64,000 bases of DNA from Fibrobacter sp. UWB4 (GCF_002210345.1 NZ_MWQI01000001.1:372001-436000); one strand, 5' to 3'. Counted from the first letter of the stretch, positions 35,628-59,640 are shown. Program-made: numbers and translations. The notes: generated from the sequence alone by a model not told the origin.

Positions 35628-38600
35628 TTACTTCTTTCTCTTGAAGCCAAGAGTCTTGGTCTTGTTGTCGTTTGCCTTTTCGACCTTGTCGCCTACAGTC
35701 TTACATGATGCCTTGTAGTCGTTACTCGATTCATCGAATGTTGTAGCGCAGTAAGTCTGGGCCTTAAAGTCAAATTTCGCAATGTAGGCACCTGTTCCAA
35801 TCTTGTTGCCCTTCTTGGAAACAGGGGCTTCGTTGTCCTTAGCCGCCCATTCCAAATTCAGCTTGAGAATGCCGTTATTGACGAGGTTGCGCAACGAGGG
35901 CGAATTTTCCTTCGGGACATCAAGCGTGTACGTGTTAATGTATTGGCCGAGGTTGTCGTAGAGATCTGCAACAATCTTGAGGCTGAAATCGTACATGGGC
36001 TTACCGTCACGAGTTGTGAAACTTGCAGAAGGCATCGTCACTTCAATTTCGAAATTTGGACCGGAACCAACGTATGCGGCTGAATCGACCTGACCGATGA
36101 GCGAACCATCGCGGCTGATGAAGTTGTATTTGCTGTTGGTGATGGCTGATACAACGAATGCATCGTCCTTGAGGGTTTCGGGGCGGCTTGCGTAGGCGCC
36201 AGCCTTCGGTGTGGTAACAGGCTTTGACAGCGTCACCTTAAAGCGGATGTTGTCATCACCCGTGATACGAATGTAGGGGTTCGAATTCGTTGGGGCAATG
36301 TTGTTTTTGTCTGTATAGCTGGATCCAAGAATATCTGGAACGAGGCGGATCCTGTCACCGACATGTACGACATGGTCCTTTTCGTTGTAGATGAACACCG
36401 ACGACTTACCCGTGCCTTGCGGTTTATCAGGAGGAATGTAGCCATCGCGTTCACGCTGGATGTATTTGCCTGCGGCACCCGTTTCAATGATGGTGAGCGC
36501 CTCAGACATGTTGACGGTCAGCATACCCTTGATAAGGCGTGCAGAGGTGATGACTGGAGCGCATTTGTCGTACAACGTGTAGTCTGTCTCAAAGAATCCG
36601 CTTGCGGCACCCTTGAGCGGAGATACTGTACCGTTGCCGTCCTTGTCGCCATTTGTTGTACCGTAAGGATAAGCCTTGTCCTGCGGAATTGTGATTTCGA
36701 TAATGCTATATGTATTAACGGAATCCTTAGTCGTAGAATCAGGCAGGATTACGGTGAATGGAGCCGAGACAGAGTCGCGAATGGTCCAGTAGGATTCCTT
36801 CGGCTTGATGACTCCGCCTGTTGTATCAGCCGTTGTTATGAATGTGCGTGTAATACCCGGATCGCCCCAAACGGTTACGATGCTGTCGAATACATCCTTC
36901 GTCTTGAGCTTTCTTTCGAACATCATGTAGACGATGTCTGGAATGCCATCGCCTTCCAGGTCGATCATGTCTGCATGGTAAATCGGTACCGGGCGGGAAA
37001 TGAGCGTTATAGGTACAGACGGCTTGCAGCCAAACGGATCAATCTGGTTGAAGTTCTGGTCGGTGATTACAAATCCACCTGTCGTCCTTGGCGATGCTTT
37101 ACCGCCTATTGGAACGAGGGATTGGTCTGCATTGCCGCTGATAACCAGTTGCCAGCTCTTGCCGTTGTTTGTAGTTGTTGCCTTTCCAACGACTGTCGGC
37201 ATGCCTGGTGCACCAGCCACCGTGAGTGGCCATTCGGTCTCGGACGAGAAAATAACCGGTTCAGAGAATGCGATCAAAATTGTGTCAAGTCCGCTTGTGT
37301 CGTCATCGGATTTCTCGAGAATGGAAACGCTTGTAAGCGTGGGGAGAATGCCGTCTGCGATTCTTGCGGTTTCTGCATTGGCCGTGCCATGATCTGCAAT
37401 ATATGTTGTGATCTTTCCAGAGGGGCTTGCGTTCACCGGAATCAAAGCCGTGTCAATGGCAATGATGATCTCGTTCAAGTCTACAAACTTTTTGGCATCA
37501 AGCGAAACCTTGACCGTATCGGACATTCCTTCGATAAAGTACCTGATGCTGTCAAGCGTGTAGTCTTCAACAAGCTTGTTCGTAAGCACGATCTTCAGCT
37601 GATCTGCCTTATTGTCGCAGTCAGAATCGATGGCGAGAACCGTTTGCGGTGTGGGCACCTTTGTCTCGGCAAAGAACGTCTGCAGGGAAACATCGTCTTC
37701 ATCGTCCGGGTCGGTGTAGATGACCTGGATTGTATCGCCTGCGAAGAACGAAATTTCGGAAGCCTGGTCCCTTGTTTCCTTGGAATGGTTGACGGCTTTG
37801 ATCGGTCCACCGACAAAGTGTCCCGGATTGTTGGCGTCAGCCTTCAAAACAACTTTCAGGACATCGTTCTTTTTCTTGTTGATGACCTGGACTTCAACAG
37901 AGGTGGCCTTGCTCTTGATCTTGTCCTTGTCCATCAAGTCAATATAGAATGTCGTGCCTTCTGGATCTGCTGGGCTTACGATCGGGTTGCCCTGAGGATC
38001 CTTGATGATAAGTGTCGATGCTGTAGCGTCGCCCTTAGAGAAGTTTACGTAGTAAGTTCTATTCAGGAATGCGCAACCACCGTTCTCGGTACATTCTTCG
38101 CATGTTGGATCTGGACCGGCAAAGATGGTGATGTCAATTTTGTTACTTCCGATACCCATTTTCACAGGAATATCAAGGTCCCACATGTCTGTGGCTAGGT
38201 CGTACATGGCAATTCTGTCTGTACCAGCTTCGTTCAAAATCCATCGTTCTGTACCCTTAGCAAAGACCTTGCCGCTCACTTTGACGCCATTGGCCCAAAC
38301 TTTTGTCACGTAGCCGCCATCGGTTATGTGGGCTTTGCCCGTGACATGGACGGTGCTGCTTGCTTGGTCAAGATCGATATGGGAACCGTTGGAAACATCG
38401 AACGGATGGTCTAAAGCAACGTCAATTCTGTAGTTTGCTCTCTTTGTTTCCATTTCCTTCTTGGACGGGCTAAAGCCCCAGATGAACTGGTCCTTGCGAT
38501 AAACGGTAATGTATGGATTTTCTGGAACATCGGGGGCCTTGTCGCCGTAATCCTTGTCTTCGACAGGCATGCCGTCGTAGTCTGCACCGTCTTCCAGGTA

Positions 38601-41600
38601 GGAATGTGGACGCCAAGACCAGTCGCCGGAGTTCTTGCTAAAGCGCTTTTTGCCGGCTATGCGCAATGTTTCGCAAGTCTTGTATCCATCGTTTGAAAGA
38701 CCAGAAGAGAAGCCGAAGTCTACACGGAGACGAGATTGTGACTTGATGACGGAAGATCCAAGTGGGGCGGGGAAGTAGTAGGAATACTTACCCGTAGCCG
38801 GATCGTAAGTGTCGTCCAGTCGGATCGGCAATGCGGCGCGTAACAGGTCACGGAGTTCACGGTCGTTTTCGCACGCAACGCTGAATCCAGCTTCGTCGTA
38901 GGCAAAGCAAATGTCGGAATCTATCAAAGTTGCACATTTATCAACTTCTTCAGGCAATGCGGTGAAGTATAGGCGCAGTGTCAAGCTGTCGAATTCTCTT
39001 GCTTCGTTATTGATGACGTTCAAGTTCAGGAAGTCCATGTTGTCAACGATGTACTGATAGCCGCGAACGCTAAAGTCGTACCAGGTTACCGGGGTCTTGA
39101 ACTTGAGCAAATTGCCTTCGTCATTCAAGTTGGTCACGATGCCGTTGCTTTCGACCATGTAGTAGTAAGTCGTCTGCTCCTTGAGACCGCCAATCTTTAC
39201 GTAGTGGAATTGTGTCGGCACACCGGAGATATCGGCATTGCCAGAGCCTGTGTTGAATGCAAATTCAGCCGCCGTAGAGTGCGGAATGGTATCCCAGTAA
39301 ACCTTAGATTCGTATTCGCCGTTCGGCGTGTACCACATGATTTCTGCGGAATCAGCGGTGACGTTACAGACGGTGACGTTTGCGATACGGGCTTCTTCGA
39401 TAAAGGAAAGGGTGGTAAACGTAAACGGAGTCTGCGTACTGTCTACGAGATATTTGGTCTTTGTATTTGCGGGGTTGTAGGCGTTTGCTCCAGTGACATA
39501 GAAGTAGTAAGTTGTACCCGCCTTTAGGTCCTTGAGGACAATGTCGTGCTTGACGGCAGAATTTTGGCTGGAAACGGTCTTGTCATAACTTCCTTCTGCT
39601 GTACCGTAAGAGATTGTCGCTGTGCCGCGCTGGGTCAGTTTGACTGTTACAATGGCGGAGTCCATGCTGACGTGACGGATTTCAACATTGATGTCCGGGG
39701 CTACGCTCTTGTCGATTTTCCTGGAGGCGAGGCTGACCGTGCTTACGAGCGTTGCCGAAGCGTCGATGCATATTTCTGACATTTCATAGTTTTCCCAGGA
39801 GAGCTTCTCCGGCTGGTTCATCTTTTTGTTCGGAGGAACAGCTCCGTAAAGGGCACCGACAGGGACGTAATACTTGTAGTCGGCACCGGGAACATTCTTG
39901 CCTTCGGGGTTTGCTGCGCGGTGATGCGGATGTGCGTCATTCTTATCGCCGACGCCCATGATAAAGGATATATCCCAAGGGTTAATGCCTAGCAAGTAGT
40001 TCAACTGGTTGATGCCGAACTGCTTTGCTTCGGCAGCTTTCCAGTTGGGAGTTCCCATCGTAGGGAGGCTTATACCTTTCTTTTCGATATCCGCTGCAAC
40101 ATCGGCATAGGCGAGAACTTCAAAGATGTCGCCGGCACGGTAGCGGTTGTAAATCCATTCCTGGTCGGTGTGCATCGTATACCAAATTCTATCGTAGGTA
40201 ACGGAACTTTGTTTCCAGATGTTTGGTACGTTCGGGAACATGAACGTTTCGCTGACTCCTTCATCATAGCGCATGTCGCCAAGGTTTACAATCATGTTGG
40301 CAACGCAGTCTTCGATGGCGTTGAGCCATTCAGATTCCGTAAGACCGTATCTTGTCAATGCTTCGTTTTTATCAGCGAGGATTAGCTTGTACAATGCGTA
40401 AAGGGCGTATGAATAGGTTGCTGCCCAGCTTGTGTTCTTTGTGTTTTTGAGGAATGCCTGGTCCGGAGATACGAACCATCCACCTTCGAAAAAGCCTGGA
40501 CCTCCATTTGCGGAAATGACTTGCTTTGAGTACATGTTCTTGTTGCGGATCATGTCGTCGGCATAAGTTTTGTCGCCGGTTGCATACAGGAGGGCGACAG
40601 AGGCTAAAGCCATTTCATCGATAAATTCATCGTTTCCGTGATAAGCTGGTGACTGTTTTGCAATCGGGTTGGGTACACCTGTTGAATCTTTGTGGTGTAC
40701 AATGGTTTTCCCTCCATCGTAGGTGGATTTCCCTTGGGCCAATGCTTTTGCGAAATCGTACATTTTTTTGGCGACCATAAGGCAGCTGTCGGCGAAGGCG
40801 TCGTATTGACCTCCGAACTCCTTGCCTTTAAACTTTCTGCTAAGGATAGCAAGGCCTGCGGCCGTTTCGCCACCGACGTTTGCGCCAACTTCGCCTAAAC
40901 GGACGGGTCTAGCTTGGGGACCGCCGCGGTCTTTGGCGGCGTTCGAGTTTCCTATAGGTAAGAGATCCTGGTTCTGTGGGAGGCCCCACCAGCCATGGTC
41001 TGAGCCGCTTGATCCGATCGAAAGCGCCATGTCGTCGATGACGCCTTTGGCTCTGACAAAAGAACGGAGCACAAAGTCGGCGCCGTGCTTTGCTTCGCGG
41101 AGCATGTCCGGGACACCGTCTGTATTGATCGTTTCATTCTGGTTGAATGCGTAATGGTCTGTGTCTGTGGAGTCGTTAGCGGCAGCCATTAATGCCATGA
41201 CCATGAAAGCGTACATCTGTGTGTGCGATTCTTTCAGGTGGTCACCGCAGTCGTAGTAACCGCCTTCAAGGGTCCCTGCAAGGGCTGCGTTATAAGGGCC
41301 TCTTACGTCAAGAGGGCCTTCTGTCACTGGGCCGCCACCATCTTTGGTATGGCTTGCCGGACGGTTACGGAACCAGGTTTCGGAGTGGCCGCTGCGGTTA
41401 ATACCGTAGAACTTGAGGGCGGCATCCTTCACCATGGAATACACGTTTTCGGAAATAATGAAGGTACTCGAAATATCGTCACCGACCTTGATGCGCAAAC
41501 GCGTCTCTATGGGGACATTTTGAGGAATATTGCCGATCATGATTGTGCCGGAAGGACCGTGTGTAGTAACCTTATAGCGCTGTTGATCACCTGTCGTAGC

Positions 41601-42056
41601 GTTTGTACCGGCAAGAATTGTCCATTCCGAGGACGTTTTGCTATTTGAAGATCTTAGAGTTCCGGTGATGGCCGGGCTAAAAGATTTGCCGTTGATATCG
41701 ACGACTTCGAATGTGGTTTTGTTGCCCACGTAATAAAATTGGCGTTCAGGATCGCTTTCCAAGTAACCGGCCTGGTTCACTCGGATTGGCGAAATGCGGA
41801 CATTCATTGCGTCGAAGTACGCCTGATTTAGGGAATCGGGAACGATTGCATTAGGCTCGTATTCCGGCGGGGTCAGCTTTTTGGGTAATATCTGGTGTAT
41901 TATGGCAACTGTTGTGTCAAAGTCCTTGAATACAGTGGAGTCCCAAGTTAAAGGGAATACAGGGCGAATCAGTTCGTAAGGAGTGGTTTGTGCCTGTTGC
42001 GCTGCTGCCATGGAGGTCGCTGCGCACAATACTAGCAGATACTTCTTAATACTCAC
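35628..42056 (-). CDS. Giant secreted GH9 cellulase, multidomain (GH9 copy 2)
   Basis: 2142 residues. Signal peptide MSIKKYLLVLCAATSMAAAQ, CelD_N-type Ig-like domain (SPIRVNQAGYL), GH9 domain with Asp269/Asp272 in DCGD, HPHHRAANPEG and Glu761 in SEICID. Then fibronectin-like units, a domain with YFPAPLGSSVIKSQSRLRVDF, a second Ig-type region, and several D-rich calcium-type motifs (DSDCDNKADQ, DLEGDGIPD). It ends KTLGFKRKK. GTG start with AAGGAG upstream. Closest relative in the window is copy 3; from about residue 850 on, the two are much more alike than in their catalytic domains. The 611-codon antisense frame here is a shadow. Confidence 0.92.
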   Translation of the reverse strand: MSIKKYLLVLCAATSMAAAQQAQTTPYELIRPVFPLTWDSTVFKDFDTTVAIIHQILPKKLTPPEYEPNAIVPDSLNQAYFDAMNVRISPIRVNQAGYLESDPERQFYYVGNKTTFEVVDINGKSFSPAITGTLRSSNSKTSSEWTILAGTNATTGDQQRYKVTTHGPSGTIMIGNIPQNVPIETRLRIKVGDDISSTFIISENVYSMVKDAALKFYGINRSGHSETWFRNRPASHTKDGGGPVTEGPLDVRGPYNAALAGTLEGGYYDCGDHLKESHTQMYAFMVMALMAAANDSTDTDHYAFNQNETINTDGVPDMLREAKHGADFVLRSFVRAKGVIDDMALSIGSSGSDHGWWGLPQNQDLLPIGNSNAAKDRGGPQARPVRLGEVGANVGGETAAGLAILSRKFKGKEFGGQYDAFADSCLMVAKKMYDFAKALAQGKSTYDGGKTIVHHKDSTGVPNPIAKQSPAYHGNDEFIDEMALASVALLYATGDKTYADDMIRNKNMYSKQVISANGGPGFFEGGWFVSPDQAFLKNTKNTSWAATYSYALYALYKLILADKNEALTRYGLTESEWLNAIEDCVANMIVNLGDMRYDEGVSETFMFPNVPNIWKQSSVTYDRIWYTMHTDQEWIYNRYRAGDIFEVLAYADVAADIEKKGISLPTMGTPNWKAAEAKQFGINQLNYLLGINPWDISFIMGVGDKNDAHPHHRAANPEGKNVPGADYKYYVPVGALYGAVPPNKKMNQPEKLSWENYEMSEICIDASATLVSTVSLASRKIDKSVAPDINVEIRHVSMDSAIVTVKLTQRGTATISYGTAEGSYDKTVSSQNSAVKHDIVLKDLKAGTTYYFYVTGANAYNPANTKTKYLVDSTQTPFTFTTLSFIEEARIANVTVCNVTADSAEIMWYTPNGEYESKVYWDTIPHSTAAEFAFNTGSGNADISGVPTQFHYVKIGGLKEQTTYYYMVESNGIVTNLNDEGNLLKFKTPVTWYDFSVRGYQYIVDNMDFLNLNVINNEAREFDSLTLRLYFTALPEEVDKCATLIDSDICFAYDEAGFSVACENDRELRDLLRAALPIRLDDTYDPATGKYSYYFPAPLGSSVIKSQSRLRVDFGFSSGLSNDGYKTCETLRIAGKKRFSKNSGDWSWRPHSYLEDGADYDGMPVEDKDYGDKAPDVPENPYITVYRKDQFIWGFSPSKKEMETKRANYRIDVALDHPFDVSNGSHIDLDQASSTVHVTGKAHITDGGYVTKVWANGVKVSGKVFAKGTERWILNEAGTDRIAMYDLATDMWDLDIPVKMGIGSNKIDITIFAGPDPTCEECTENGGCAFLNRTYYVNFSKGDATASTLIIKDPQGNPIVSPADPEGTTFYIDLMDKDKIKSKATSVEVQVINKKKNDVLKVVLKADANNPGHFVGGPIKAVNHSKETRDQASEISFFAGDTIQVIYTDPDDEDDVSLQTFFAETKVPTPQTVLAIDSDCDNKADQLKIVLTNKLVEDYTLDSIRYFIEGMSDTVKVSLDAKKFVDLNEIIIAIDTALIPVNASPSGKITTYIADHGTANAETARIADGILPTLTSVSILEKSDDDTSGLDTILIAFSEPVIFSSETEWPLTVAGAPGMPTVVGKATTTNNGKSWQLVISGNADQSLVPIGGKASPRTTGGFVITDQNFNQIDPFGCKPSVPITLISRPVPIYHADMIDLEGDGIPDIVYMMFERKLKTKDVFDSIVTVWGDPGITRTFITTADTTGGVIKPKESYWTIRDSVSAPFTVILPDSTTKDSVNTYSIIEITIPQDKAYPYGTTNGDKDGNGTVSPLKGAASGFFETDYTLYDKCAPVITSARLIKGMLTVNMSEALTIIETGAAGKYIQRERDGYIPPDKPQGTGKSSVFIYNEKDHVVHVGDRIRLVPDILGSSYTDKNNIAPTNSNPYIRITGDDNIRFKVTLSKPVTTPKAGAYASRPETLKDDAFVVSAITNSKYNFISRDGSLIGQVDSAAYVGSGPNFEIEVTMPSASFTTRDGKPMYDFSLKIVADLYDNLGQYINTYTLDVPKENSPSLRNLVNNGILKLNLEWAAKDNEAPVSKKGNKIGTGAYIAKFDFKAQTYCATTFDESSNDYKASCKTVGDKVEKANDNKTKTLGFKRKK

Positions 42057-42360: not shown

Positions 42361-45300
42361 TTATTTCTTTCTCTTAAACCCGAGGGTCTTTGTCTTGCTG
42401 TCCGTCGCTTTTCCCATCTTTTCTCCGACTGTTGAGCAAGATGCCTTGTAGTCATTGCTCTTTGAGTCGAATGTGGTGGCGCAGAACGGCTCGGCCGTGA
42501 AGTCAAACTTTGCGATATAGGCTCCGGTTCCAATCTTGTTGCCCTTCTTTGCAACCGGCGCTTCGTTGTCCTTAGCCGCCCATTCCACGTTGAGCTTGAG
42601 GACTCCGTTGTTGGTCAGGCTTCTAATCGTTGCAAAGTTCTCTCTCGGAATGTCAAGCTTGTAGGTGTTCACATACTGTCCTAGGTTATCGTAGAGGTCC
42701 GTGACTACCTTCAGGTGGAAATCATACATCGGCTGGCCGTCGTGAGTCAAGAAGCCTACAGAAGGCATCGTAACCTCGATTTCGAAATTCGGACCCGAGC
42801 TAATGTATGCGGCAGAATCCACTTGACCGAGTAGCGTTCCGTCTGCGCTGATGAAGTTGCGCTTGCCGTTGATGACTGCGGATGTAATGAACGCATCTTT
42901 CATGGTGTTTTCTGGACGGCCTGTGTATGCACCAGCCTTCGGTGTTGCTACAGGTTTCGTGAGCGTTACCTCAAAGCGGATGTTGTCGTCACCCGTGATA
43001 CGCACATAGGGGTTTGATACCGTCGGAACATTGTTGTTCTTGTCGATGTAGGCTGCACCGAGAATATCTGGAACAAGACGGACTCGGTCACTGGCGTAGA
43101 AAACATTGTCCTTTTCGTTATAGGTAAAGATTTGCGTCTTGCCTGTGCCTTGGGGCCTTTCAGGCGGGATATATTCGTCGCGTTCGCGTTGAATGTACTT
43201 GCCCGTTTCGGTTATGTTGACATTTTCGGACAAATTGACGGTGAGCAGGCCTTCCTTGAGCATGCGTGCTGATGCAATGACAGGAGCGCATTTGTCGTAC
43301 AGCGTGTAGTCAGATTCAAAGAATCCGTTTGCGACGCCCTTCATCGGGGAGACTGTTCCGTTTCCATCTTTTTCTCCGCTTGTAGAACCGTACGGATAGG
43401 CATGTGTTGCCGGAATGTTGATTTCGATAATGCTATACGTGTTGACGGAATCCTTCGAATGGATGGAGTCAATCATGACCTTGAACGGAGCCGAGACGGA
43501 GTCGCGGATGGTCCAGTAGGATTCCTTCGGCTTGATGACGCCGCCGGTTGTATCAGCTGTTGTAATGAAGGTGCGTGTAATACCCGGATCGCCCCAGATG
43601 GTTACAATGCTGTCGAATACATCTTTGGGTCTTAGCTTTTTTTCGAACATCATAAAGACAACATCGGGGATACCGTCGCCTTGCAAATCGATCATATCAG
43701 CATGATAGATTGGGACCGGGCGAGAAATAAGCGTTATTGGAATGGATGGCTTACAGCTGATGCTTATCGGGTTGAAGTTATGGTCGGTAATTGTGAATCC
43801 GCCAGTTGTTCTTGCACTTGCCATGGCGCCAATCGGGACGAGCGAATTGCCTGCATTGCCGCTGATGATAAAGGTCCAGCTCTTGCCGTTATTGGTGGTT
43901 GTCCCCTTCCCGATAACGGTCGGAATGCCGGTAGCACTAGCGATGGTAAGCGGCCATTCGCTTTCGGATGAGAGTATCACCGGTTCTGAGAATGCGATCA
44001 TGACTGTGTCGAGACCGCTATTGTCGTCGTCGGCTTTTTCGAGAATCGAAACGCTTTCGAGAGTGGGGAAAATACCGTCCGCAATTTTTGCAGTTTCCGC
44101 ATTTGTTGTACCGTGATCGGTAATGTGGACCGTAACCTTTCCAGACGGGCTTGGATTCTTAGGAACAAGGCTTGTGTCTATCGGGATGGTGATCTCGTTC
44201 TGGTTTGCGTATTGTGTGGCGACAAGCTTAACTTTGGCAGAATCGGTCATGCCATCGATAAAGTAGCTGATACTTTCTAGCGTATATTCTTCAGTAAATT
44301 TGTTTGAGAATGTAATCTTCAGCTGATCGGCCTTGTTGTCGCAGTTTGTGTCTTCGGCGAGAACTATCTGCGGCGACGGAATCTTGGATTCAGCAAAGAA
44401 TGTCTGCTTCGAAACATCGTCTTCGTCGTCGGGGTCGGTGTAAACCACTTGGATTGTATCGCCTGCGAAGAACGAAATTTCAGAAGTCTGGTTCCTGGTT
44501 TCCTTGGAATGGTTGACGGCTTTAATCGGGCCGCCGACAAAGTGACCGGGGTTATTCGCGTCTGCGGTCAAGGTGACCTTGAGCTGATCGTTTTTCTTGT
44601 TGTTGATAATCAAGACATCGACAGAATTTGCCTTGCTCTTGATCTTGTCCTTATCCAACAGGTCGATGTAGAATGTCGTACCTTCCGGGTTTGCGGGGCT
44701 TACGATGGGGGTACCTTGCGCATCCTTGATGACAAGCTGGGATGCCGTGGCGTCTCCTTTGGAGAAATTGATGTAATAGGTTCTGTTCTCAAAAGCGCAT
44801 CCGCCATTTTCTGTGCAGACATCGCAAGTGGGGTCCGGGCCGGCAAATATCGTTACATCAACCTTGTTTGAACCGATTCCCATCTTGACGGGGATGTCGA
44901 GATCCCACATGTCGGTCGGAATGTCGTACTTTGCGATAATATTTGTTCCGGATTCGTCTAAAAGCCACTTGTCAAGGCTTTGCTGGTCAACGAATGCTTT
45001 GCCGCTGATCTTGACACCATTTGCCCAAATCTTGGTGATGTAGCCATTTTCCGTTATATGGGCTTTACCCTTGACATGAACGGTGCTGTTACTTTGGTCT
45101 ATATCGATATGGGTTCCATTCGAAACATTGAAAGGAGGATCCAGGGATACGGTCAATTCGTATTTCGCTTTCTTCGTCTCCATTTCTTTTTTGGATGGGC
45201 TATATCCCCACACGAATTCATCCTTGCGGTAAATGGACACGTAAGGGTTGATGGGGGCTATGTCATCATCGCCAAAGTTCTTGGGAAGGCAGGGTATGCC

Positions 45301-45624
45301 TTCAAAATCTGCGTAATCGCCGTTTTTCTTTGAGTGCGGCATCCAGCTCCAGTCACCAGGATTTTGAGGTAGTTTGTCTTTGGCTTGGGATGTCCACGAG
45401 GTTCCGTCGTTGCAGTAGAATTTCTTTTTGGGCGTGTCGTTCATCAAATCCAGGTGCGGTTCCCATTCGCTACGTCTGTCGAACATAACGTCAAGTCTGA
45501 GTCTGCTGGAGGATTTGATGATTGTTGAGCCTAGCGGAATGGGGAAGTACCATTGCCACGTGCCGTCGGTCGGATCGTAGGTGTCTTCGATCTTCTGGGG
45601 GGAATGTCTGGCGGAACAATCCAT
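42361..45624 (-). pseudogene. C-terminal half of a frameshifted giant GH9 cellulase (GH9 copy 3)
   Basis: About 1087 codons, homologous along its whole length to residues 1050-2142 of copy 2, ending KTLGFKRKK. It begins inside the same domain in which the N-terminal half leaves frame (YFPIPLGSTIIKSSSRLRLDV). It has no signal peptide, SD or plausible start, so it is not an independent gene. The frame is joined to 45491-48697 by removing one base from the G6 tract at 45597-45602. The sequence shows no other stop codons or decay, which suggests a very recent event, a phase-variable state or a sequencing error. Confidence 0.85.
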
Positions 45625-48600
45625 CCAGCTCTTTTTGCGTTGCCGCGGAGCATGTGTCGTTGAAGGCTGCTTCGTTGTAAGCCTGGCAGATATCGCGCCT
45701 GATGCCTACGTCGTAATAGATTGCGTCTGTAGCGCGCATGTAGAGGCGAATTGTTAAGCTGTCAAACGGTCTCTCTTCGTTATTGATAATGTTCATTTCG
45801 AGGGCTGGCATCGGGTCCCAGACATATTGGGACATTCGAACTTCAAATTTGTATTGCGTTACAGGCGTTTTAAACTTTAACGGCTCGTTCTTTTCATTGA
45901 CGTTTGTATAAACGCCATTGCTTTCTACGGCGTAGTAGTAGGTGGTCCTTTCCTTGAGTCCGCCAATTTTCACGTAGTGGAACTGCGTCGGGATGCCAGA
46001 AATGTCGGCGTTGCCATCTCCAGTGTTGAATGCGTATTCATTTAAGCTTGAATGCGGAAGCGTATCCCAGTAAACTTTCGAGTCATATTCGCCGTTTGGC
46101 GTGTACCACATGATTTCGGCGGAGTCGGCGGTGACATTGCAAACGGCAACATTTTGAATGTTTGCAGGTTCATTCATGTTCTTCGTTGTAAACGTGAACG
46201 GAGTTGAAGTGCTATCGACTAGCCATTTTTTTGAAGTATTTCCGCTTCGCGGATTCTTTGCCATGGCGTAGAAGTAGTAAGTTGTTCCGGGCTTGAGATC
46301 ACGCAGCACGATCTGGTGCTGGTTGGTTGCTGTTTCGGAACTTGCTGTTATCGGGTTCTTTAAGGTTTCCGTTGTGTCGTAAGTGATATAGGCAAAACTG
46401 CCCAAGTCTAGCTTTACAAAAACAATAGCTGAATCAACGTCCACGTGGCGGATTTCAACGGATATTGCGGGCGCTCTGTTCAAATCCTCTGATTTCGCAA
46501 GAAAAACTGCTGCGGGGAGGAAGTTGGATACGGCGTCGATGCATGTATTTTCTGTCAGATGGTAATCGTTAAAATGAACTGTAAGGTCGTCCATTCCCGT
46601 AGGTACTGCACCCGGGCCTAAACCTCCAACGGGTGGGCGATATTTGTATGTAGAGATGACTCCAGCGACGTTTTTACCTTCGGGGTTTGAACCGCGATGG
46701 TGCGGATGGGCGTGGTTCTTGTCGCCAACGCCGTAAATCAAGGAAACATCCCACGGGTTCATGCCGAGATAATAGTTCATGTGTGAAAGGGCGAGTTCTA
46801 GGATTTCATCCGATTTCCAATTTTGAACAGTTCCTGTTTGTGGCATTGTGACATTTTCCAAGTCCTTTGTCACGTCGTAATACGCCAAAAGTTCAAAAAT
46901 GTTGGCTGCTTCGTACTTGGTCCACCACTCCGCTGGATTTACTGGACTTGTAAGTCCCCAGATGGGGTCGTATGAAATACTGGAGCCGATCCAGCCGGCT
47001 TGCCCCGCAGGAAGAGTTAATGTCGTGGTGCCGCCCTTCATGACCCCAGCGAGGTTTGCCGCCATGGTGAAGGCAACGTCTTCGATATAAATCATCCTTT
47101 GCTCTTCTGAAAGGCCGTAAGCGCTCGCTTTTTCCTGTGTTTCCAGAATTAACTTGTAAAAGGCGTAAAGGCCACTTGTAAAGACGCTTGCCCAGTCCGA
47201 TGCGGCATTAGATTTCAAGAAAGAAGCTTCTTTGTGCGCGAACCATCCGCCATTGAACATGCCTGCGCCTTTTTTGTCGCTGTTGGCGAAATCTTTCTTG
47301 GTCTGGCCGCCTGCTAGGGATTTTTCTTCGACGGCGTCGTTCAAATAAGTTTTATCTGCGGTTGCATAGAAAAGGCATACAGCCGCAAAGCCCATTTCGT
47401 CATGGTATGTGGATCCACCGCTATAAGCCGGTGAATTTGTGAGTTTTTTCTTGGACTTGCCGTACTCATAAAGAGCTTTTGCCACAGTCAAGCTTTTTTT
47501 GGCAAAGGTGGAATCGTATTTAGCCCAAACTTTGGAGACTATGGCCAAGCCTGCGGCAAAGTTTCCGGAGGCCGTACTTCCAAGTTCTGCATCGCTTCCG
47601 GGGTTGTCATCGCTTCTCAAGATTCGAGCTGTCGGACCACCTCTATCATGGAGTGTGTTGTCCTGGTATTCTGGAGAACCCCACCATCCGTGGTCTTTGC
47701 CGATTTCGCCAATGGATACTGGCATCGCCGATACAACGCCTTTGGCTGCATCGTATGCCTTTATGACGTATTCGGCTCCGAATTTGGCTTCTCTGAGCAT
47801 GTCAGGGATGTTGTCTGTATTTTGGGCTTCGCTTTGGTTGAATGCGTAGTTGTCCTGGTCGCGGTCTTCGTAAGCGGCGGCCGTCATGGCGAGCTGTGCT
47901 AGGCTATAGGAGATAGTTTGGCTTTCTTTAAGATGGTCTCCACAGTCGTACCAGCCGCCGGTCATATCTACATTGGCTAGGGAGCCGTCTTTCAGATGGC
48001 TTGGTTTGTGGAACCACGATTCCGAATTGCCGCTGCGGTTGATTCCGTAGAACTTGAGTACCGCGTCGCGAAGCATGGAGTAAACTCTGTCGCTCACGAT
48101 AAATGTGGAGGAATAATCGTTTCCGACCTTGATACGCAATCTTTCGTTTTCGGGGAGACCGTCGGGGAGATAGCCTCTCTTTAAAGCTCCTGTAGGTCCC
48201 GCCTTTTTTGCCGTGTAGCGGTTATCGCCACCGTATTCTATTTGGGCGTTGTTCGACGCCTTGATTGTTAAGGATGACGAAACAGAACTCTTGAGTGTTT
48301 CTGTGAAGCTTCCTTTGCCAACGACTTCGCCTTTCGCATTGACGACATCGAAGTTTGTCGCTGAACCGACGTATAGCACCGGCTTTTTTGCGTCCTGTGG
48401 GCGGTAACCGGCCTGGTTTACACGTATGGGGGATATCTGGATGACCATGGCGTCGATGTACGCCTGGTTCAATGTATCCGGAGTGATTATCTCGTTTGGG
48501 GCATAGTATTCCGGGGTGTTTTTGCTTGGTAAAGAAACACGCTTTGGGCCTGGAGTAAAATTAGTCTTGAATATGGTGCTGTCCCAGGTCAACGGCCAAA

Positions 48601-48697
48601 CCGGCCTGATTAAATCGTATGGCGTGGGAAGGTTCTGCTGTGCTACGGTTAAGCCTACTGTAGCGCACAAAGCCAGCAGATATTTTTTTATACTCAT
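45491..48697 (-). pseudogene. N-terminal half of a frameshifted giant GH9 cellulase (GH9 copy 3)
   Basis: Signal peptide MSIKKYLLALCATVGLTVA; Ig-like CelD_N domain (SPIRVNQAGYRPQDAKKP); GH9 with Asp251/Asp254 in DCGD, HPHHRGSNPEG, and Glu716 in TENTCID, where one extra residue (Asn717) follows the catalytic-type Glu compared with copies 1 and 2. Fibronectin-like units follow, and then the frame is lost at the C6 (coding strand) run; the last 34 or so residues are out of frame. If read as is, this half would still give a secreted catalytic domain without the distal modules. ATG 48697 has AAAGGAG 6 bp upstream. Confidence 0.85.
45597..45602. other. G6 homopolymer at the frameshift
   Basis: Six G (six C on the coding strand, in TTCCCCCCAGAAG). 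With five C the reading is T-F-P-Q-K-I-E-D-T-Y, which matches copy 2 (LPIRLDDTYDP); with six the frame is lost. Confidence 0.9.
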
Positions 48698-48850
48698 TTT
48701 GTCTCCTTTAACGTAAAACAAAAACGGGCAAAATGAATTCTGCCCCCAAACAATCCTCTTGAAAGTGAAAATAAATTATTTACAAAAGAACCGTTAGAGA
48801 AATTTAATTTTTTATTCTTTATCTGTTCTCAGGTTGTTTCTTGTTCTTAT

Positions 48851-51792: not shown

Positions 51793-52422
51793 CTAGTCCT
51801 TGAATTCTATGCTTTCAATGGCATCAAAAAGTTCTGTCCTAACATTTGTGCCAAACGTTAAACTACGCATGAAGACGAGAACGATGTTTCCTTTTGGGGT
51901 TAATCTTGATGCGAGGCAGATGTCTTCTGGTGTTCCGTCGTCATGTGTTATTTTGTAGCATCTGTGTGTATACTTTTTCTCGGAATTGTAGTCTGTATCA
52001 ACAAGGTTTTCTTTTGTACAATCTTTGAAAAATCCATCGTAGGCTGTGAAAATTCTGGTTGTCTTTAATGAATCGCTTATATCGTTTTGGAAAACTTCCG
52101 GATTGTTTTGAACAGCTTTGCTGTATGAAGCGAGTATGAAACCCATTTCTAAATCATCGTTGTTTAATGTAACCGAAGCTATCCCCTTAGTGGTGTCATG
52201 AACAGCGTTTTTGTAACTGAATGGGAGGTTGACGTTGAATGGGGTATCAATTTCTAGTTTCTCAGGCATTTCTGTTGCAATGAATGCGTTTGCTGTTGAT
52301 ACACGGACGTAGATGAGCATTTGTCCAAGAACGATGGGACGCATCCTTGTGCCCGTCAGAATGGCGCAACCAGAAAGTACAAGTACTGCGAAAATGAGTG
52401 AAATAGACAAAATCTTTTTCAT
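51793..52422 (-). CDS. Putative lipoprotein, unknown function
   Basis: 209 residues. Lipoprotein signal MKKILSISLIFAVLVLSGC with lipobox LSGC, Cys19. The remainder is a mixed alpha/beta domain with a pair of Cys (DFFKDC-type and HRCYK) and no recognised motif. SD AAGGAG before ATG 52422. No homologous family comes to mind. Confidence 0.65.
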   Translation of the reverse strand: MKKILSISLIFAVLVLSGCAILTGTRMRPIVLGQMLIYVRVSTANAFIATEMPEKLEIDTPFNVNLPFSYKNAVHDTTKGIASVTLNNDDLEMGFILASYSKAVQNNPEVFQNDISDSLKTTRIFTAYDGFFKDCTKENLVDTDYNSEKKYTHRCYKITHDDGTPEDICLASRLTPKGNIVLVFMRSLTFGTNVRTELFDAIESIEFKD

Positions 52423-53049: not shown

Positions 53050-53243
53050 TTTTGCTTTTAATGAGGCTTGTTTGTGTCTTGTTGACTTTTTCTTGTTTTT
53101 AATATGAAAAAAGTTATTTTGCGTAATTTATGTGAAATTAATTGTCTTTGTTTGAATTACTTTTTTGTAAAAAATGAGTATAAAATATTTGATTTGGTTT
53201 GAATATCTTATATTTAAACTATGTGTTTATGAAGGAGTAGAAT
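53050..53243 (+). promoter_or_regulatory. Duplicated promoter/leader region of S8-like paralogue 1
   Basis: About 190 bp that match 55256-55449 closely, including AATTACTTTTTTGTAAAAAA, GAGTATAAAATATT, AATATCTTATATTTAAA and GAAGGAGT before the ATG. The promoter probably lies around ATCTTATATTTAAA. Confidence 0.65.
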
Positions 53244-55166
53244 ATGAAAAAGGAGATTGCTTTATTAGTTGCCGCCAGTTGCATTGGCGCTGGTGCGGCT
53301 ACGGTGAATTATGACCTTTTGGGTCGTAAGGGGAGTAAAATGAATTCCCCGATGGTCTATAAGAATATAGACTATAGTAAAATGAAGAAAAAAGAACAGC
53401 AGAGCATTGGTTCTTCTCTGGAAAATAAAACGCTAAAAAGGCTTGGAACGGGGCTGAATTCGAATTATCGTTCTATTGCGGGTGTTTATAATAATAAGGG
53501 GCTGGATTATTATATGGCAAGTTCCCAGAATCCGTATCCCTACTATTTGAAGTGGTGGAAAGCAAATGGTTCATATGAGGATGGCTGGTATAATAAGTTG
53601 GCTGGAAATGGTGGCTATATGGACCAGTCAAATGCTGTTTTTAAGAGCTTCTCTCTTAAGTCGCACTATCCGCCTGCATATAAATATGCCGGGATTTCCA
53701 ATGTTTATGGGCATGGTTACAATATGACGTGGTTGCCTCCTGCTTCTGGAATTTCTAATCCGGTTCAGTCTTCGCCATATGCATATTATCAGCAAATTCG
53801 ATACGAACCTTTTGGAACTGTCGAAATGACTAAGTCCAAAAGGAGCGATATCTCATGGTATGATGAAAGCCATCTGTATCCGGATGCGGATTGGGGTGAT
53901 GTCGGTGTTTATATGGTTGCTGATGCTGAACCGGTTAGCTTGCGCCATCAACAGTATGATCGCTATGTTCTGGTTAATCCGAATGAACAGTTTTCTCCGG
54001 ATCCCGTAAATGAAATGCTTTCGGCAAGGTCCTATAGAATTATTAAGGATGCTACGAATTTTTCTGTGGTTTATGTAAGCAAAAATCGACCTTCAGATCC
54101 GTCTTCTGATGCCAGGGGACCTCAAATTTATGTAGGACTTCATAATCGTGGCGATGTTTTCTATGATAATGAAGATGCTATGAAATATTCTACTGCGGCT
54201 AGGGATCTTGATAATTACATCTATAATAATAGAACGACCGAAATCGTCGCTGCAGGAAACTATATGGTTCGTCTTAATACAGGACATCTGGCTGCTGAAG
54301 CACATGCCGCAAATGCCATTACTGTTGGTGCGGTAGATGCTTATAGTGGAGAGATTACGAGCTATAATTCGACAAAGTCGAAATATTGCACTCGTGGTAT
54401 TGGCGGGTGCGATGGACTTTCTAATACCAATGAAGGGTCCAGAAAACCGGAAATATACAACTATTCTCACTTCTATTTTTTGGATGAATGGAGAGAGTAT
54501 ACGGATTTGTCTTCTGGAGTGCAGTACAGTTATGATCCTTTCTATGATGGCAATGAAATGTCTGCTGCTTATACAGCAAGTATGGTCGCTGAACTTCTGT
54601 CGGTCAATCCGTTCTATCGCTGGCATCCGGAAGTCGTAAAGGCTTTGTTGCTGACTTCGGGCGATGTCTCTGTGTCTCCTCCTTATCCTGAATACTATCC
54701 GGTAACATCGGAAATTCCGTCTTACCGTAGCTTGGTTTTCGATAAAAATCACAATTCCTACTTCCATGAATCTCGTTATTGGGTGGGCGAAACGCAGCGG
54801 CTGAAAACGCATGTTGAACCTTATAGCGAAAGAAAAGAAATTCGCTTTAAAGTCAAACGCCCGGCTGGCAAGACTAATTTTAAGGCTGCAATTGCATGGC
54901 TGAGCAGTGGTAATGATATTGCAAATCTTGGCAGGGTTCCTCAGGATTTCGATTTGTATGTGTATGAAAGTAATGACGGCAATGTGGATAATATAGATGT
55001 CTATAACTCCCATGCATCATCTCTTAGCGGCATTGACGCTTACGAAAAAATCTCGTTTACATCGAATGCTAATTACCTGGTGTTCCGTATTCTTCTTTAT
55101 CGCGATCTCGAAGATTCTGAAAATAATGGACAGATGGTCTTGGGCTTTGATGTGGCCGCTAAATAG
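53244..55166 (+). CDS. Secreted subtilisin-fold (S8-like) paralogue 1, catalytic Ser replaced by Glu
   Basis: 640 residues. Signal peptide MKKEIALLVAASCIGAGA, then a block shared by all three paralogues (TVNYDLLGRKGSKMNSPM onward, about 36 residues). The region 325-460 follows the subtilase order: EIVAAGN with the oxyanion-type Asn339, AANAITVGAVDAYSG, RKPEIYNYSH, then DGNEMSAAYTASMVAELL and VVKALLLTSGDV, which align with 'AAGN', 'vitVGAvd', 'kPdv.aPG', 'GTSMAaPhvaGvaAll' and 'vk.lL..tA'. The serine of GTS is Glu438. No HGTHVAG motif is found and the Asp motif is weak. The C-terminal 150 residues are a beta domain (FKAAIAWLSSGND, PQDFDLYVYES). Not expected to be a protease. SD GAAGGAG. Confidence 0.7.
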   Translation: MKKEIALLVAASCIGAGAATVNYDLLGRKGSKMNSPMVYKNIDYSKMKKKEQQSIGSSLENKTLKRLGTGLNSNYRSIAGVYNNKGLDYYMASSQNPYPYYLKWWKANGSYEDGWYNKLAGNGGYMDQSNAVFKSFSLKSHYPPAYKYAGISNVYGHGYNMTWLPPASGISNPVQSSPYAYYQQIRYEPFGTVEMTKSKRSDISWYDESHLYPDADWGDVGVYMVADAEPVSLRHQQYDRYVLVNPNEQFSPDPVNEMLSARSYRIIKDATNFSVVYVSKNRPSDPSSDARGPQIYVGLHNRGDVFYDNEDAMKYSTAARDLDNYIYNNRTTEIVAAGNYMVRLNTGHLAAEAHAANAITVGAVDAYSGEITSYNSTKSKYCTRGIGGCDGLSNTNEGSRKPEIYNYSHFYFLDEWREYTDLSSGVQYSYDPFYDGNEMSAAYTASMVAELLSVNPFYRWHPEVVKALLLTSGDVSVSPPYPEYYPVTSEIPSYRSLVFDKNHNSYFHESRYWVGETQRLKTHVEPYSERKEIRFKVKRPAGKTNFKAAIAWLSSGNDIANLGRVPQDFDLYVYESNDGNVDNIDVYNSHASSLSGIDAYEKISFTSNANYLVFRILLYRDLEDSENNGQMVLGFDVAAK

Positions 55167-55255
55167 TGACTGCTGAATAGGAATTGTTTGAGAAAGACTC
55201 GTCGGCATATGCAGGCGAGCCTTTTTGTATGCAAAAGTTATGTCTGGTGTGTAAA

Positions 55256-55449
55256 TTTTAGCTTTTGATGAGGCTTATTCGTGCCTTGTTGGCTTTTTCT
55301 TGTTTTTATACAAAAAATGTTATTTTGTGAAATTTATGCGAAATAAAATGTCTTTGTTTGAATTACTTTTTTGTAAAAAATGAGTATAAAATATTGATTT
55401 TGATTAGAATATCTTATATTTAAAGTACATATTTGTGAAGGAGTGAAAT
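55256..55449 (+). promoter_or_regulatory. Duplicated promoter/leader region of S8-like paralogue 2
   Basis: Near copy of 53050-53243, ending GAAGGAGTGAAAT-ATG. Shows that the duplication included the control region, so paralogues 1 and 2 are probably expressed alike. Confidence 0.65.
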
Positions 55450-57456
55450 ATGAAAAAGGAAATTGCTTTATTAGTTGCAGCCGGTTGCATTGGTGCTGGT
55501 GCGGCTACGGTGAATTACGACCTTTTGGGGCGTAAGGGAAGTAAAATGAATTCCCCGATGGTCTATAGGAATATAGACTATAGTAAAATGAAGAAACAAG
55601 AACAGCAAAACATTGGTTCTTCTCTGGATGCTAATGTCTTGGCTAAAAAGGCTTCAGGTCTTGTAAATGGTGCGTATTCTGCGGAAGGCCGTTTCTTTAA
55701 TCGAGGTTGGACCGGAGCGAACGACTGCTATACGAACTATAGTAATACGAACTATCGTTGCTTCTATAATTTTACGGCACATTCTTACTCTTATCCAACG
55801 CTTTCTTCTGATCGAGGAAGCTTGTTTTATGCATACGGTCCGTATGGTGATATTGGTTACATTGAACGATCGAATGAATATTTTAAATACATCCCCGTTC
55901 CTGATGATTATATAAATCCAAACTTCTATACGGAAAACAGTTTTTCTCGTGCCAATAATCAAGGGTATAGTTTTTCGTATAACAATTCTTTCAATTTCAA
56001 TAATCCTGTACAGACATCTCCCTATGGAGATGGAAGTCAAATTCAGTACAAGAATTTCAAAGATGTTAGAGACGGAAGTTCTTATTCTGATAGACAGTAT
56101 ATATCGGTTTGGTATGGTGCGCAGAATTCCGCTAATTACGGTAATGCTGCTTATACTAGCCAGCCGTATACTTGGGCGGTCGAATGGAAAAATGACTGGA
56201 CAAATGTTGGCATCTATGTGCCTTTAAATGCAATGCCAGTCAAGATGGCTCAAAATGATCAGATTAAATATGTGGTAGTGTCTCCGGCTAGCTATTGGCA
56301 AGTTCCATCAAATGAAATTGATGCTTCGAAAACATTTAAAATATTAAAGAATTCTTCGAAAAAATCCGATATTTATGTGGGTTCTGCGGAATATCCGAGT
56401 TATCCGAGCAATATTCAAAAGGATAACATTTATATGGGTCTTCGAGTCCGTAAGCCCATGGCGGGCGGATTTATGCCTTCTGGATTGTATTACTCAGATG
56501 AAGCGCGTACGCTCGATAACTACATCTATACCAATCGTACTGTAGAAATTGTTGCTGCAGGTGAAGGTAGTGGATCCAACAGAAACTTTGCAAATATTGC
56601 CCACGCTGTAAATGCTATTACAGTTGGCGCTGTTGATCCTACAAGCGGTAATGCTACTGCATATACGCCTAATGTTCGACCCAGATATTGCACTAGCGGA
56701 ATCGGAAACTGCAATTCGAGCAGTTCTTACAATATTGGAACTACAAAGCCGGAAATTAGCAATTATACTCATTTTTATTTTAATGAAGGTGGCTATAATT
56801 CGGATAAGGGCCGAAAGTATACGGCGTCATGGGGAACTGTTTCGACATATGACCCTTATTACGATGGTACGTCAATTTCTGCTGCATATACTGCAGGTAT
56901 GGTTTCTGACCTTCTGGCTACAAATGCTTTCTACCGTAGGCATCCTGAAGTTGTTAAGGCTACATTGCTTACATCGGCAAGTGTGACTGGCGTCCCGACC
57001 TATGCAACTTTGTTGCCGCCTCGTTCCTATACAGATGTAAACCATGCTTATCCGTATAAGCATGAATCCCGTTTCTGGGTCGGCGATATCAATAAGGTGA
57101 AAACTCATGAGGATTCTTATGGCAGAAAGGAAATCAGATTTAAGGTGAAAACTTCTGATTTTGAATCGAATAATTTTGTTGCTGCTATTTCCTGGTTGAG
57201 TAGTGGTGACGATATCGCAAATCTTGCTAAGATTCCTCAGGATTTTGACCTTAGGGCTTATGCAAATAATTCGGGAAATCTTAATGATCTTGAAACCTTC
57301 CTGGATTCTTCCTTAAGTTCTTTTGACGCTTTTGAAAAGGTATCCTTCTCGACAAGTGCAAACTATATTGTGTTCGTTATCACCTTGTATTCTGATGACG
57401 TGAATAGTGAAAACCGTGGACAGGTTGTCTTGGGCTTTGACATGATGTCTCGCTAA
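55450..57456 (+). CDS. Secreted subtilisin-fold (S8-like) paralogue 2, catalytic Ser kept but oxyanion Asn lost
   Basis: 668 residues, same plan as paralogue 1: signal peptide MKKEIALLVAAGCIGAGA, conserved N-terminal block, subtilase-like core, C-terminal beta domain (FVAAISWLSSGDD, PQDFDLRAYANN). Here the nucleophile motif is intact (DGTSISAAYTAG, Ser475), but the motif equivalent to AAGN reads AAGE (Glu372), and no HGTH is present. The triad Asp position, weakly placed in 'GIYVPLNAMPV', reads Asn. The loss pattern is the mirror of paralogues 1 and 3. The region from 75 to 220 is rich in Tyr, Asn and Ser and differs most from the others. Confidence 0.7.
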   Translation: MKKEIALLVAAGCIGAGAATVNYDLLGRKGSKMNSPMVYRNIDYSKMKKQEQQNIGSSLDANVLAKKASGLVNGAYSAEGRFFNRGWTGANDCYTNYSNTNYRCFYNFTAHSYSYPTLSSDRGSLFYAYGPYGDIGYIERSNEYFKYIPVPDDYINPNFYTENSFSRANNQGYSFSYNNSFNFNNPVQTSPYGDGSQIQYKNFKDVRDGSSYSDRQYISVWYGAQNSANYGNAAYTSQPYTWAVEWKNDWTNVGIYVPLNAMPVKMAQNDQIKYVVVSPASYWQVPSNEIDASKTFKILKNSSKKSDIYVGSAEYPSYPSNIQKDNIYMGLRVRKPMAGGFMPSGLYYSDEARTLDNYIYTNRTVEIVAAGEGSGSNRNFANIAHAVNAITVGAVDPTSGNATAYTPNVRPRYCTSGIGNCNSSSSYNIGTTKPEISNYTHFYFNEGGYNSDKGRKYTASWGTVSTYDPYYDGTSISAAYTAGMVSDLLATNAFYRRHPEVVKATLLTSASVTGVPTYATLLPPRSYTDVNHAYPYKHESRFWVGDINKVKTHEDSYGRKEIRFKVKTSDFESNNFVAAISWLSSGDDIANLAKIPQDFDLRAYANNSGNLNDLETFLDSSLSSFDAFEKVSFSTSANYIVFVITLYSDDVNSENRGQVVLGFDMMSR

Positions 57457-57495
57457 TTCGAACTCGTTGAAATATAAAATACAGCCTTATTTGTA

Positions 57496-57526
57496 AAGCC
57501 TCGCTAGCGTATTGCTGGCGGGGCTT
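57496..57526 (+). terminator. Stem-loop after S8-like paralogue 2
   Basis: AAGCCTCGCTAGC pairs with GCTGGCGGGGCTT through two G-U pairs; weak T content follows. Confidence 0.6.
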
Positions 57527-57619
57527 AACTTGTTGTAAATAATTTTATATGTTGTTATATATAGAAACTATTTTATTATTTTATAGATACTTATAAAATA
57601 ATAAAGAGAGAGGGTGTAA

Positions 57620-59581
57620 ATGAATAAAAAAATGGCTTTCATTGTGGCTCTAGGCTGTGCTTATGCCGGTGCTACTTCTACTGTAAATTATGACCTTCTT
57701 GGTCGCAAGGGGAGCAAAATGAATTCCCCGATGGTCTATAAGAATATAGACTACTCCAAGATGAAAAAGGATAAACAGCAGGTCGGGTCTTCGCTAGAAG
57801 TGAAGTCTTTGGCGAAAAACGCTGGTCCAGGTTTTCAGAATAACGCGGATGCCATAACGGGTATTTTCAATAATAGAGGGTTGGAACATCAAAATAACAC
57901 GTACCCTTATTATATGAAACGGTACTTCCAGCAAGGTGCCCCTCTTGAAGGCTGGTATAGCACCTTGGGTGGGGAGTCTGGGTACATGAAGCAATCCAAT
58001 CAGGTCTTTTTCCCTGTCCCGATGGAACGCAAGAATCCGGTTAACCTGCAATACGGGGTAAGAACGAATGTTCCGTCAAGTGAATATTCCCTTTCGACAA
58101 CGAATTATACCTTCAATAACAATTCGCAGCCATCTCCTTACAGCTATTCTCAGTATGGCAATACCGAGATGATTAATTATATGCCGTTTTCCGCTATTGA
58201 AAACTACGCCAAGAGGTATTCGATTTGGTGGTATGACAATCCGTCGTATACGCCGAATCCAGAACAGTGGGACGATGTGGGTATTTATATGTCCATAGAC
58301 GCCCTTCCGGTCAAGTTGGATCCGAATAAGTCTGTTCCGTATCTTAAGCTTGCGTCTGGAGAATTGTTCGAACCGACGCCTGAAACAGAAATGCTGTCTT
58401 CAAGAACGTATGATGTTATAAAGGCGACGGCGAAAAATTCTGTGATTTTTGTCGGTAGCGAGTACCCTCTATGGCCGGAAGATTATCCGTTAAATCCGAA
58501 TCATCGCAGTCCGTTTGTTTATGTGGGTGTTCGAAATCGCCAATATGGAAATGTCGATAATCAGCTCGCAAAGCAATATTCTTATGAAACGATGCAGGTT
58601 GATAATGCCATATATAGAGGTCGTCGTATTGATGTTATTCCCGCTGGGAATTATAATGTGAGAAACAATTCAGGGCATCTTGGTCTTGAAGCTCATGCAG
58701 CCAATGCCATTACGGTGGGTGCAGTCGATGCTGAAACTCGAAAAATCACGAGTTATAACTCGACTCAATCCTATTATTGTACTCTGGGTTTAAGGCAATG
58801 CAATGATGGAAATAATTTGAGGATTGGTTCCCGAAAGCCTGAAATCTACAATTTTTCTCATTACTATTTTGATCATCAATCTAATAGCAACTATCCTCAA
58901 GAACAGAAACGAGTTTATACGAATAGATCTACTGGAATTGCCTATACCTATAACCCGTATTACGACGGTTCCGAAATGGCTGCTGCATATACGGCAGGGC
59001 AGATCGCGAACCTTTTGTCGGCAAATCCGTACTATCGCTGGCACCCGGAAATGGTGAAGGCTTTGATGCTTACTTCTGGGGATGTCTCTATAAACACTCC
59101 ATATCCGAATGGAACTCCGATAACGACAAAGATGCCTTCTTATTATAGCATGCTTACGGACCAAAATCACAGTGAAGTTTTCCATGAATCCCGCTATTGG
59201 GTGGGCGAAATCAGTAAGCTGTACACGCATTATACAGATGAAGGACAGAAAGAAATTCGTTTCAGTGTCAAGCGTCCTACAGATAAGAGTAATTTTACAG
59301 CAGCAATTGCTTGGTTAAGTAGTGGTTCTGATCTTGTTAAGGTTGGCAGAGTTCCTCAGGATATCGACCTTTATGTGTATGAAAGCAATACCTCGAATGT
59401 GAATAATCTTTCTAATTTAAAAGTCTCATCGCTTGATGGAGATAATGCATATGAACGTAAATCGTTTACGTCAAATGCAAACTATCTTATTTTCCGCATT
59501 CTTATTTATGCCGACCGTACTCCGGATAATTCAGACAATAAAGGTAAAATTGTCCTTGGCTTCGATCTTGCTGGTATCTAG
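57620..59581 (+). CDS. Secreted subtilisin-fold (S8-like) paralogue 3, catalytic Ser replaced by Glu
   Basis: 653 residues. A different signal peptide (MNKKMAFIVALGCAYAGA), but the following block (TVNYDLLGRKGSKMNSPM onward) is the same as in the other two, also at DNA level. Core: IPAGN with Asn344, AANAITVGAVDAETR, RKPEIYNFSH, then DGSEMAAAYTAGQIANLL with Glu452 at the serine position. The upstream region is unrelated to those of paralogues 1 and 2 and has GAGAGAGGG as SD, so its control differs. C-terminal domain as in paralogue 1 (FTAAIAWLSSGSD, PQDIDLYVYES). Followed by a terminator, closing the array. Confidence 0.7.
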   Translation: MNKKMAFIVALGCAYAGATSTVNYDLLGRKGSKMNSPMVYKNIDYSKMKKDKQQVGSSLEVKSLAKNAGPGFQNNADAITGIFNNRGLEHQNNTYPYYMKRYFQQGAPLEGWYSTLGGESGYMKQSNQVFFPVPMERKNPVNLQYGVRTNVPSSEYSLSTTNYTFNNNSQPSPYSYSQYGNTEMINYMPFSAIENYAKRYSIWWYDNPSYTPNPEQWDDVGIYMSIDALPVKLDPNKSVPYLKLASGELFEPTPETEMLSSRTYDVIKATAKNSVIFVGSEYPLWPEDYPLNPNHRSPFVYVGVRNRQYGNVDNQLAKQYSYETMQVDNAIYRGRRIDVIPAGNYNVRNNSGHLGLEAHAANAITVGAVDAETRKITSYNSTQSYYCTLGLRQCNDGNNLRIGSRKPEIYNFSHYYFDHQSNSNYPQEQKRVYTNRSTGIAYTYNPYYDGSEMAAAYTAGQIANLLSANPYYRWHPEMVKALMLTSGDVSINTPYPNGTPITTKMPSYYSMLTDQNHSEVFHESRYWVGEISKLYTHYTDEGQKEIRFSVKRPTDKSNFTAAIAWLSSGSDLVKVGRVPQDIDLYVYESNTSNVNNLSNLKVSSLDGDNAYERKSFTSNANYLIFRILIYADRTPDNSDNKGKIVLGFDLAGI

Positions 59582-59608
59582 TTCCTGTGAAGCCTAAATG
59601 CTTAAAAT

Positions 59609-59640
59609 GCCCCGATGGAAAAATCCGTCGGGGCGTTTTT
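59609..59640 (+). terminator. Terminator of the S8-like array
   Basis: GCCCCGA/TCGGGGC stem followed by GTTTTTGTTTG. Confidence 0.85.

Follow-up and report, generated by a model that had tools for sequence, protein, structure and literature searches.

Tandem subtilase-like proteins of Fibrobacter devoid of the catalytic triad, with a predicted carboxylate-lined site in the former cleft

Three consecutive genes on the plus strand of the window, i.e., the whole stretch of 64,000 nucleotides from Fibrobacter sp. UWB4 that was analyzed here, encode proteins that, judged by their sequences, belong to the S8 fold family and are not active S8 peptidases. They are probably secreted pseudoproteases in which the former cleft has become a conserved, carboxylate-lined predicted binding site and whose genes form expanding arrays with 5' ends that underwent gene conversion. 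Pseudoenzymes are usually recognized by what they have lost. Here, the losses go together with acidic residues gained repeatedly at two facing positions, in many paralogues and in several lineages, which renders the use of a dead protease site directly testable. With regard to rumen biology, the proteins would constitute a large secreted family of variable copy number in a major fibre-degrading genus.

Tandem array and relation to subtilases

An ORF scan recovered three tandem reading frames at the positions given in the preliminary description, each with a signal-peptide-like start. P1 (53244-55166, +) comprises 640 residues, P2 (55450-57456, +) 668 and P3 (57620-59581, +) 653, with pairwise identities of 45-54%. 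P3 is followed by a terminator-like hairpin of 16 pairs (59604-59639, +), recognized by consensus match only. In the short signal region all three carry a cysteine, Cys13, that is present in 95% of the inactive clade described below and absent from intact relatives; this start is possibly lipoprotein-like, its box not being canonical.

The proposed affiliation with subtilisin-type proteins was corroborated by Pfam family PF00082 for P1 (38.8 bits) and P3 (41.3 bits), both exceeding the cut-off of 21.8, but not for P2, which did not match Pfam on its own and is tied to PF00082 only via its 49% identity to P1. A family matching P1-P3 was not found in NCBIfam. When a family profile made from 40 relatives was aligned to subtilisin BPN', KP-43 and SubHal among the PDB sequences, E-values ranged from 2e-19 to 1e-8 and the columns of Asp32, His64, Asn155 and Ser221 could be located. 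The alignment with BPN' is gapless and places V-G-V-Y-x-x-E/D-x-G of the family over V-x-V-x-x-x-D32-S-G, while the one with the KP-43/SubHal type spans the core as well as the C-terminal domain. P1-P3 share motif order, PF00082 match and core plus C-terminal alignment with those S8 proteases that bear a C-terminal beta-sandwich, and at this level a fold unrelated to S8 is not indicated. A phmmer search of the PDB with P3 alone as the query returned no match. AlphaFold models derived from 11 sequences were of low confidence (mean pLDDT 42.7 for full-length P3 and 36.7 for the catalytic domain of P1), and the top match of the latter low-confidence model in a PDB fold search, the subtilase SubTY, was not significant (E 0.078).

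The order of subtilase motifs and the residues originally singled out were confirmed at the codon level. In the oxyanion-hole column (Asn155), P1 and P3 contain Asn339 (54258-54260, +) and Asn344 (58649-58651, +), respectively, and P2 contains Glu372 (56563-56565, +). The nucleophile column (Ser221) is occupied by Glu438 in P1 (54555-54557, +), Ser475 in P2 (56872-56874, +) and Glu452 in P3 (58973-58975, +). In the His64 column, P1 and P3 have Leu and P2 has Asp; the residues of the Asp32 column are Ala, Leu and Ile in P1, P2 and P3, respectively. Just as had been suggested, each copy is thus devoid of a catalytic triad: catalytic Asp and His are missing from all three, Ser221 is additionally missing from P1 and P3 and Asn155 from P2. 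A triad placed elsewhere in the chain did not emerge either, the Asp32 and His64 columns lacking an acid/His pair throughout. Besides the absence of the Asp/His/Ser triad, it is Glu at Ser221 (P1, P3) and at position 62 that sets the proteins apart from S8 subtilases.

Acidic residues in inactive family members

Our survey of the Ser and Asn sites covered about 130 relatives, nearly all from Fibrobacter, and revealed a pattern of either Glu at the former or an acid at the latter. In a maximum-likelihood tree based on 596 columns, with the catalytic columns excluded, P1, P2 and P3 fall into one clade of 65 rows with a support of 100; the tree search was a quick one that gave single support values. 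The alignment is uncertain for the divergent rows L035 and L126-L133.

In this clade the catalytic Asp, His and Ser have disappeared and two glutamates have been acquired, one located two residues before the His site (65 of 65 members) and the other at the Ser221 site (60 of 65). Neither of these columns contains Glu in any of the 41 intact full-length rows. The former, Glu257 in P1 (54012-54014, +), is the strongest conserved new residue and had escaped the preliminary description; its counterparts by alignment are Glu289 in P2 (56314-56316, +) and Glu257 in P3 (58388-58390, +). It would correspond to subtilisin position 62, the respective stretch of the alignment being weakly conserved, and residue 62 is one that we take to lie beside the substrate cleft. 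At positions 155/221 the clade exhibits the states N/E (56), D/E (4), D/R (2), E/S (1, P2), E/G (1) and N/Q (1). In conservation within the clade, the columns of Asp32 and His64 rank towards the bottom (435 and 454 out of 567), indicating that these sites drift freely while the two glutamates do not. Conservation along the chain peaks in an N-terminal motif (residues ~26-50). A search of the same genome for further proteins sharing an N-terminal motif recovered the genes of P1-P3 only.

Nearly all rows from outside Fibrobacter are of the intact form. Among the rows with Asn155 and Ser221 that cover the relevant columns, His64 is kept in 54 of 54 and position 32 is Glu in 43 and Asp in 11; Ser125 occurs in 52 of 55 Asn155/Ser221 rows. 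Judging from these sequences, the ancestral form was presumably an intact and active protease equipped with acid-His-Ser and Asn155. As His64 and an acid at position 32 accompany Asn155/Ser221 in every case, loss of the active site has been almost all-or-none, with the exception of two members that keep His, one within the genus (L016, D/A) and one outside (L166:2870, N/E).

By the genetic code, at least two base changes separate Ser from Glu. The presence of Glu at position 221 changes at least six times on the tree, and Glu also occurs there in the unrelated pair L015/L111 and in L166, a member of another genus. P2 had been thought to keep Ser475. This does not agree with the tree, in which P2 is nested among N/E relatives with an E/G row (L107:10660) as its sister (support 99), so that Ser475 and Glu372 are both derived. 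Retention of the ancestral serine is ruled out by this placement among Glu-bearing relatives.

The replacements in P1-P3 had been interpreted as complementary, non-random loss. The non-random pattern persists, but as a property of the family of about 130 members rather than as complementation within a trio. Out of 80 inactive rows, 59 contain Glu221 without an acid at 155, 12 an acid at 155 without Glu221, four contain both and five neither (N/W twice, I/W, N/M and N/Q). Across the family, inactive members in which Glu221 is missing usually have an acid at the Asn155 site. A Pagel-type test yielded an LR of 20.2 (4 df, p 5e-4) and, when the most divergent rows were omitted, of 21.0 (p 3e-4), and the observed phi of -0.66 was reached in 0 of 1000 simulations with independent sites on the same tree (mean 0.00, sd 0.17). 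A strict count of independent pairs yielded five, of which three to four were opposite and almost none changed in the same direction, too few to reach 0.05. The coupling between positions 155 and 221 thus stems from few independent events, yet is well supported by the model-based tests.

Distribution, selection and array dynamics

Of 80 Fibrobacter genomes that were searched with a profile, 40 contain the family. Six copies, three intact and three inactive, are present in the array's own genome (3.58 Mb; the window is part of contig C1), and up to 16 were scored in other genomes of the genus. At the level of the phylum, relatives were found in three further genera belonging to the same taxonomic family, together with a weak match in one distant genome; a scan of viral contigs returned none. 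The P1-P3 array is located between the genes for fumarase and rluE, a site that harbours two copies in L037, at least four plus a fragment in L038 and at least four in L090/L092. Partner genes recurring across different array sites were not found, the only shared synteny being that of the fumarase/rluE locus. The array is adjoined by a gene for a putative lipoprotein of 209 residues (51793-52422, -) that is kept at the same site in genomes with other array sizes. Three very large proteins of glycosyl hydrolase family 9 with fibronectin-like domains (1944, 2142 and 1076 residues) are encoded nearby on the minus strand (29724-35558, 35628-42056 and 45491-48721), and a reading frame for 1087 residues between these genes (42361-45624, -) had no Pfam match.

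For close pairs, dN/dS values lie between 0.07 and 0.52 in inactive and intact members alike, from which it follows that the inactive genes are maintained by purifying selection. P1 and P2 share a 5' repeat unit of 300 nt that consists of 156 nt upstream sequence and the first codons (53088-53387, +, and 55294-55593, +); the two copies are 89% identical at the DNA level, compared with ~49% for the proteins overall. The synonymous difference between P1 and P2 amounts to 0.19 in the first 58 codons versus 0.71 thereafter. Neighbouring genes of other arrays behave similarly (0.29-0.41 at the 5' end versus 0.56-0.71 in the rest), except for the young pair L038:907/5293 with 0.41 in both parts. Neither P3 compared with P1 or P2 nor most cross-genome pairs exhibit a 5' trend. 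Lower synonymous difference at the 5' ends within arrays points to conversion of the leaders while the gene bodies diverge, and homogenization of the P1 and P2 leaders by gene conversion appears likely. Invertible repeats were not detected in the array.

Described systems and possible functions

Sedolisins (S53) contain an acidic residue at the oxyanion position. This also applies to PC2 (PCSK2), where the acidic residue occupies a position that is normally Asn (PMC4182778). Unlike P1 and P3, both are active proteases with a Ser nucleophile and without Glu at Ser221. Nor do the proteins contain the Ser-Glu-Asp triad of S53, since P1 and P3 lack Ser at 221 and the serine of P2 is combined with Leu in the Asp32 column and Asp in the His/Glu column. 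The nearest described case that we found are CspA and CspC from Clostridioides difficile, which resemble P1-P3 as inactive subtilase paralogues originating from an active protease; P1-P3 likewise are inactive paralogues of intact family members and are under selection. CspC has been proposed to act as a ligand sensor (PMC6636752). However, CspA and CspC are spore proteins rather than array-forming secreted ones, have two degenerate catalytic residues and stem from a different phylum, and a description of an acid pattern at 155/221 was not found for them in the literature. In line with the original statement that no system of such form was known, our literature search did not uncover any family with Glu at Ser221 coupled to position 155, and it yielded nothing relevant on Fibrobacter subtilases.

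We propose that P1-P3 descend from presumably active, secreted subtilases of a Fibrobacter-centred family and that the substrate cleft was turned into a carboxylate-bearing site in the clade that lost catalytic Asp, His and Ser. This site would be formed by the invariant Glu at the predicted equivalent of subtilisin position 62 and, mostly, by Glu at 221 facing Asn155, and in the minority without Glu221 an acid at 155 would usually take over. Going by the subtilisin fold, the acids should be close in space. The proteins would act outside the cytoplasm as predicted binding proteins, in keeping with a secreted binding role that had been considered before and is plausible; a peptide, amine or divalent cation may be held in the former cleft, with the variable N-terminal part and loops as possible determinants of specificity. 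Arrays would grow and shrink by tandem duplication, with gene conversion homogenizing their 5' ends. A more far-reaching version, in which a rebuilt multi-carboxylate site (Glu62, Glu221 and Asn155, or an acid at 155) fulfils a newly selected metal- or amine-dependent or catalytic function as part of a diversifying secreted Fibrobacter repertoire, is conceivable but doubtful.

Alternatively, the inactive proteins could regulate or chaperone intact members in trans by binding either them or their substrates, in analogy to CspA/CspC and CspB in C. difficile. Such a role is possible because 15 genomes, the array's own included, hold both forms; moreover, an E/A copy lies within a tandem array of N/S copies on contig C7 of G033, and an intact gene and a Glu221 gene adjoin in L166. 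We consider it rather unlikely, as 11 genomes, some of them near-complete (G028 and G003, 100%; G068, 98%), contain inactive members only and as big inactive arrays in the genomes seen are located on other contigs or far from intact copies.

New chemistry, i.e., a Glu-based hydrolase, transferase or metal-dependent enzyme employing Glu62, Glu221 and Asn155, would account for two clade-specific, near-invariant acids in a former catalytic cleft and for the recurrence of Glu221 in unrelated lineages. Its probability is low, because the clade includes members with Ser, Gly, Arg or Gln in place of Glu221, a tolerance that would be unusual in a catalytic residue, and because the candidate partner histidines near the site, P1 His354 and His409 (two checked), are not invariant. 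A purely structural part for the acids appears similarly improbable: an oxyanion-hole carboxylate could satisfy hydrogen-bond donors and stabilize the fold, with function residing in the N-terminal region or the C-terminal beta-sandwich. Supply of the acid from either of two neighbouring positions, the existence of a D/R pair and the location of the most conserved block in the N-terminal motif would fit such a plug, but Glu257, present in all 65 members independently of the 155/221 state, would be left unexplained. Decay of functionless copies, suggested by the lost catalytic residues, is extremely improbable in view of frames that are open throughout, the dN/dS values, repeated array expansion and invariant new residues.

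A separate observation concerns the intact relatives, a number of which (L005, L026, L031, L160, L170 and others) carry Glu where the catalytic Asp would be expected, E-x-G replacing D-S-G, in combination with complete His, Asn and Ser. In the literature, the triad of subtilases is given as Ser-His-Asp only and that of serine-carboxyl proteases as Ser-Glu-Asp (PMC11593635). The intact relatives differ from described subtilases in that they mostly have Glu at the Asp32 site; they possibly contain a Glu-His-Ser triad and, if active, would represent unusual subtilases.
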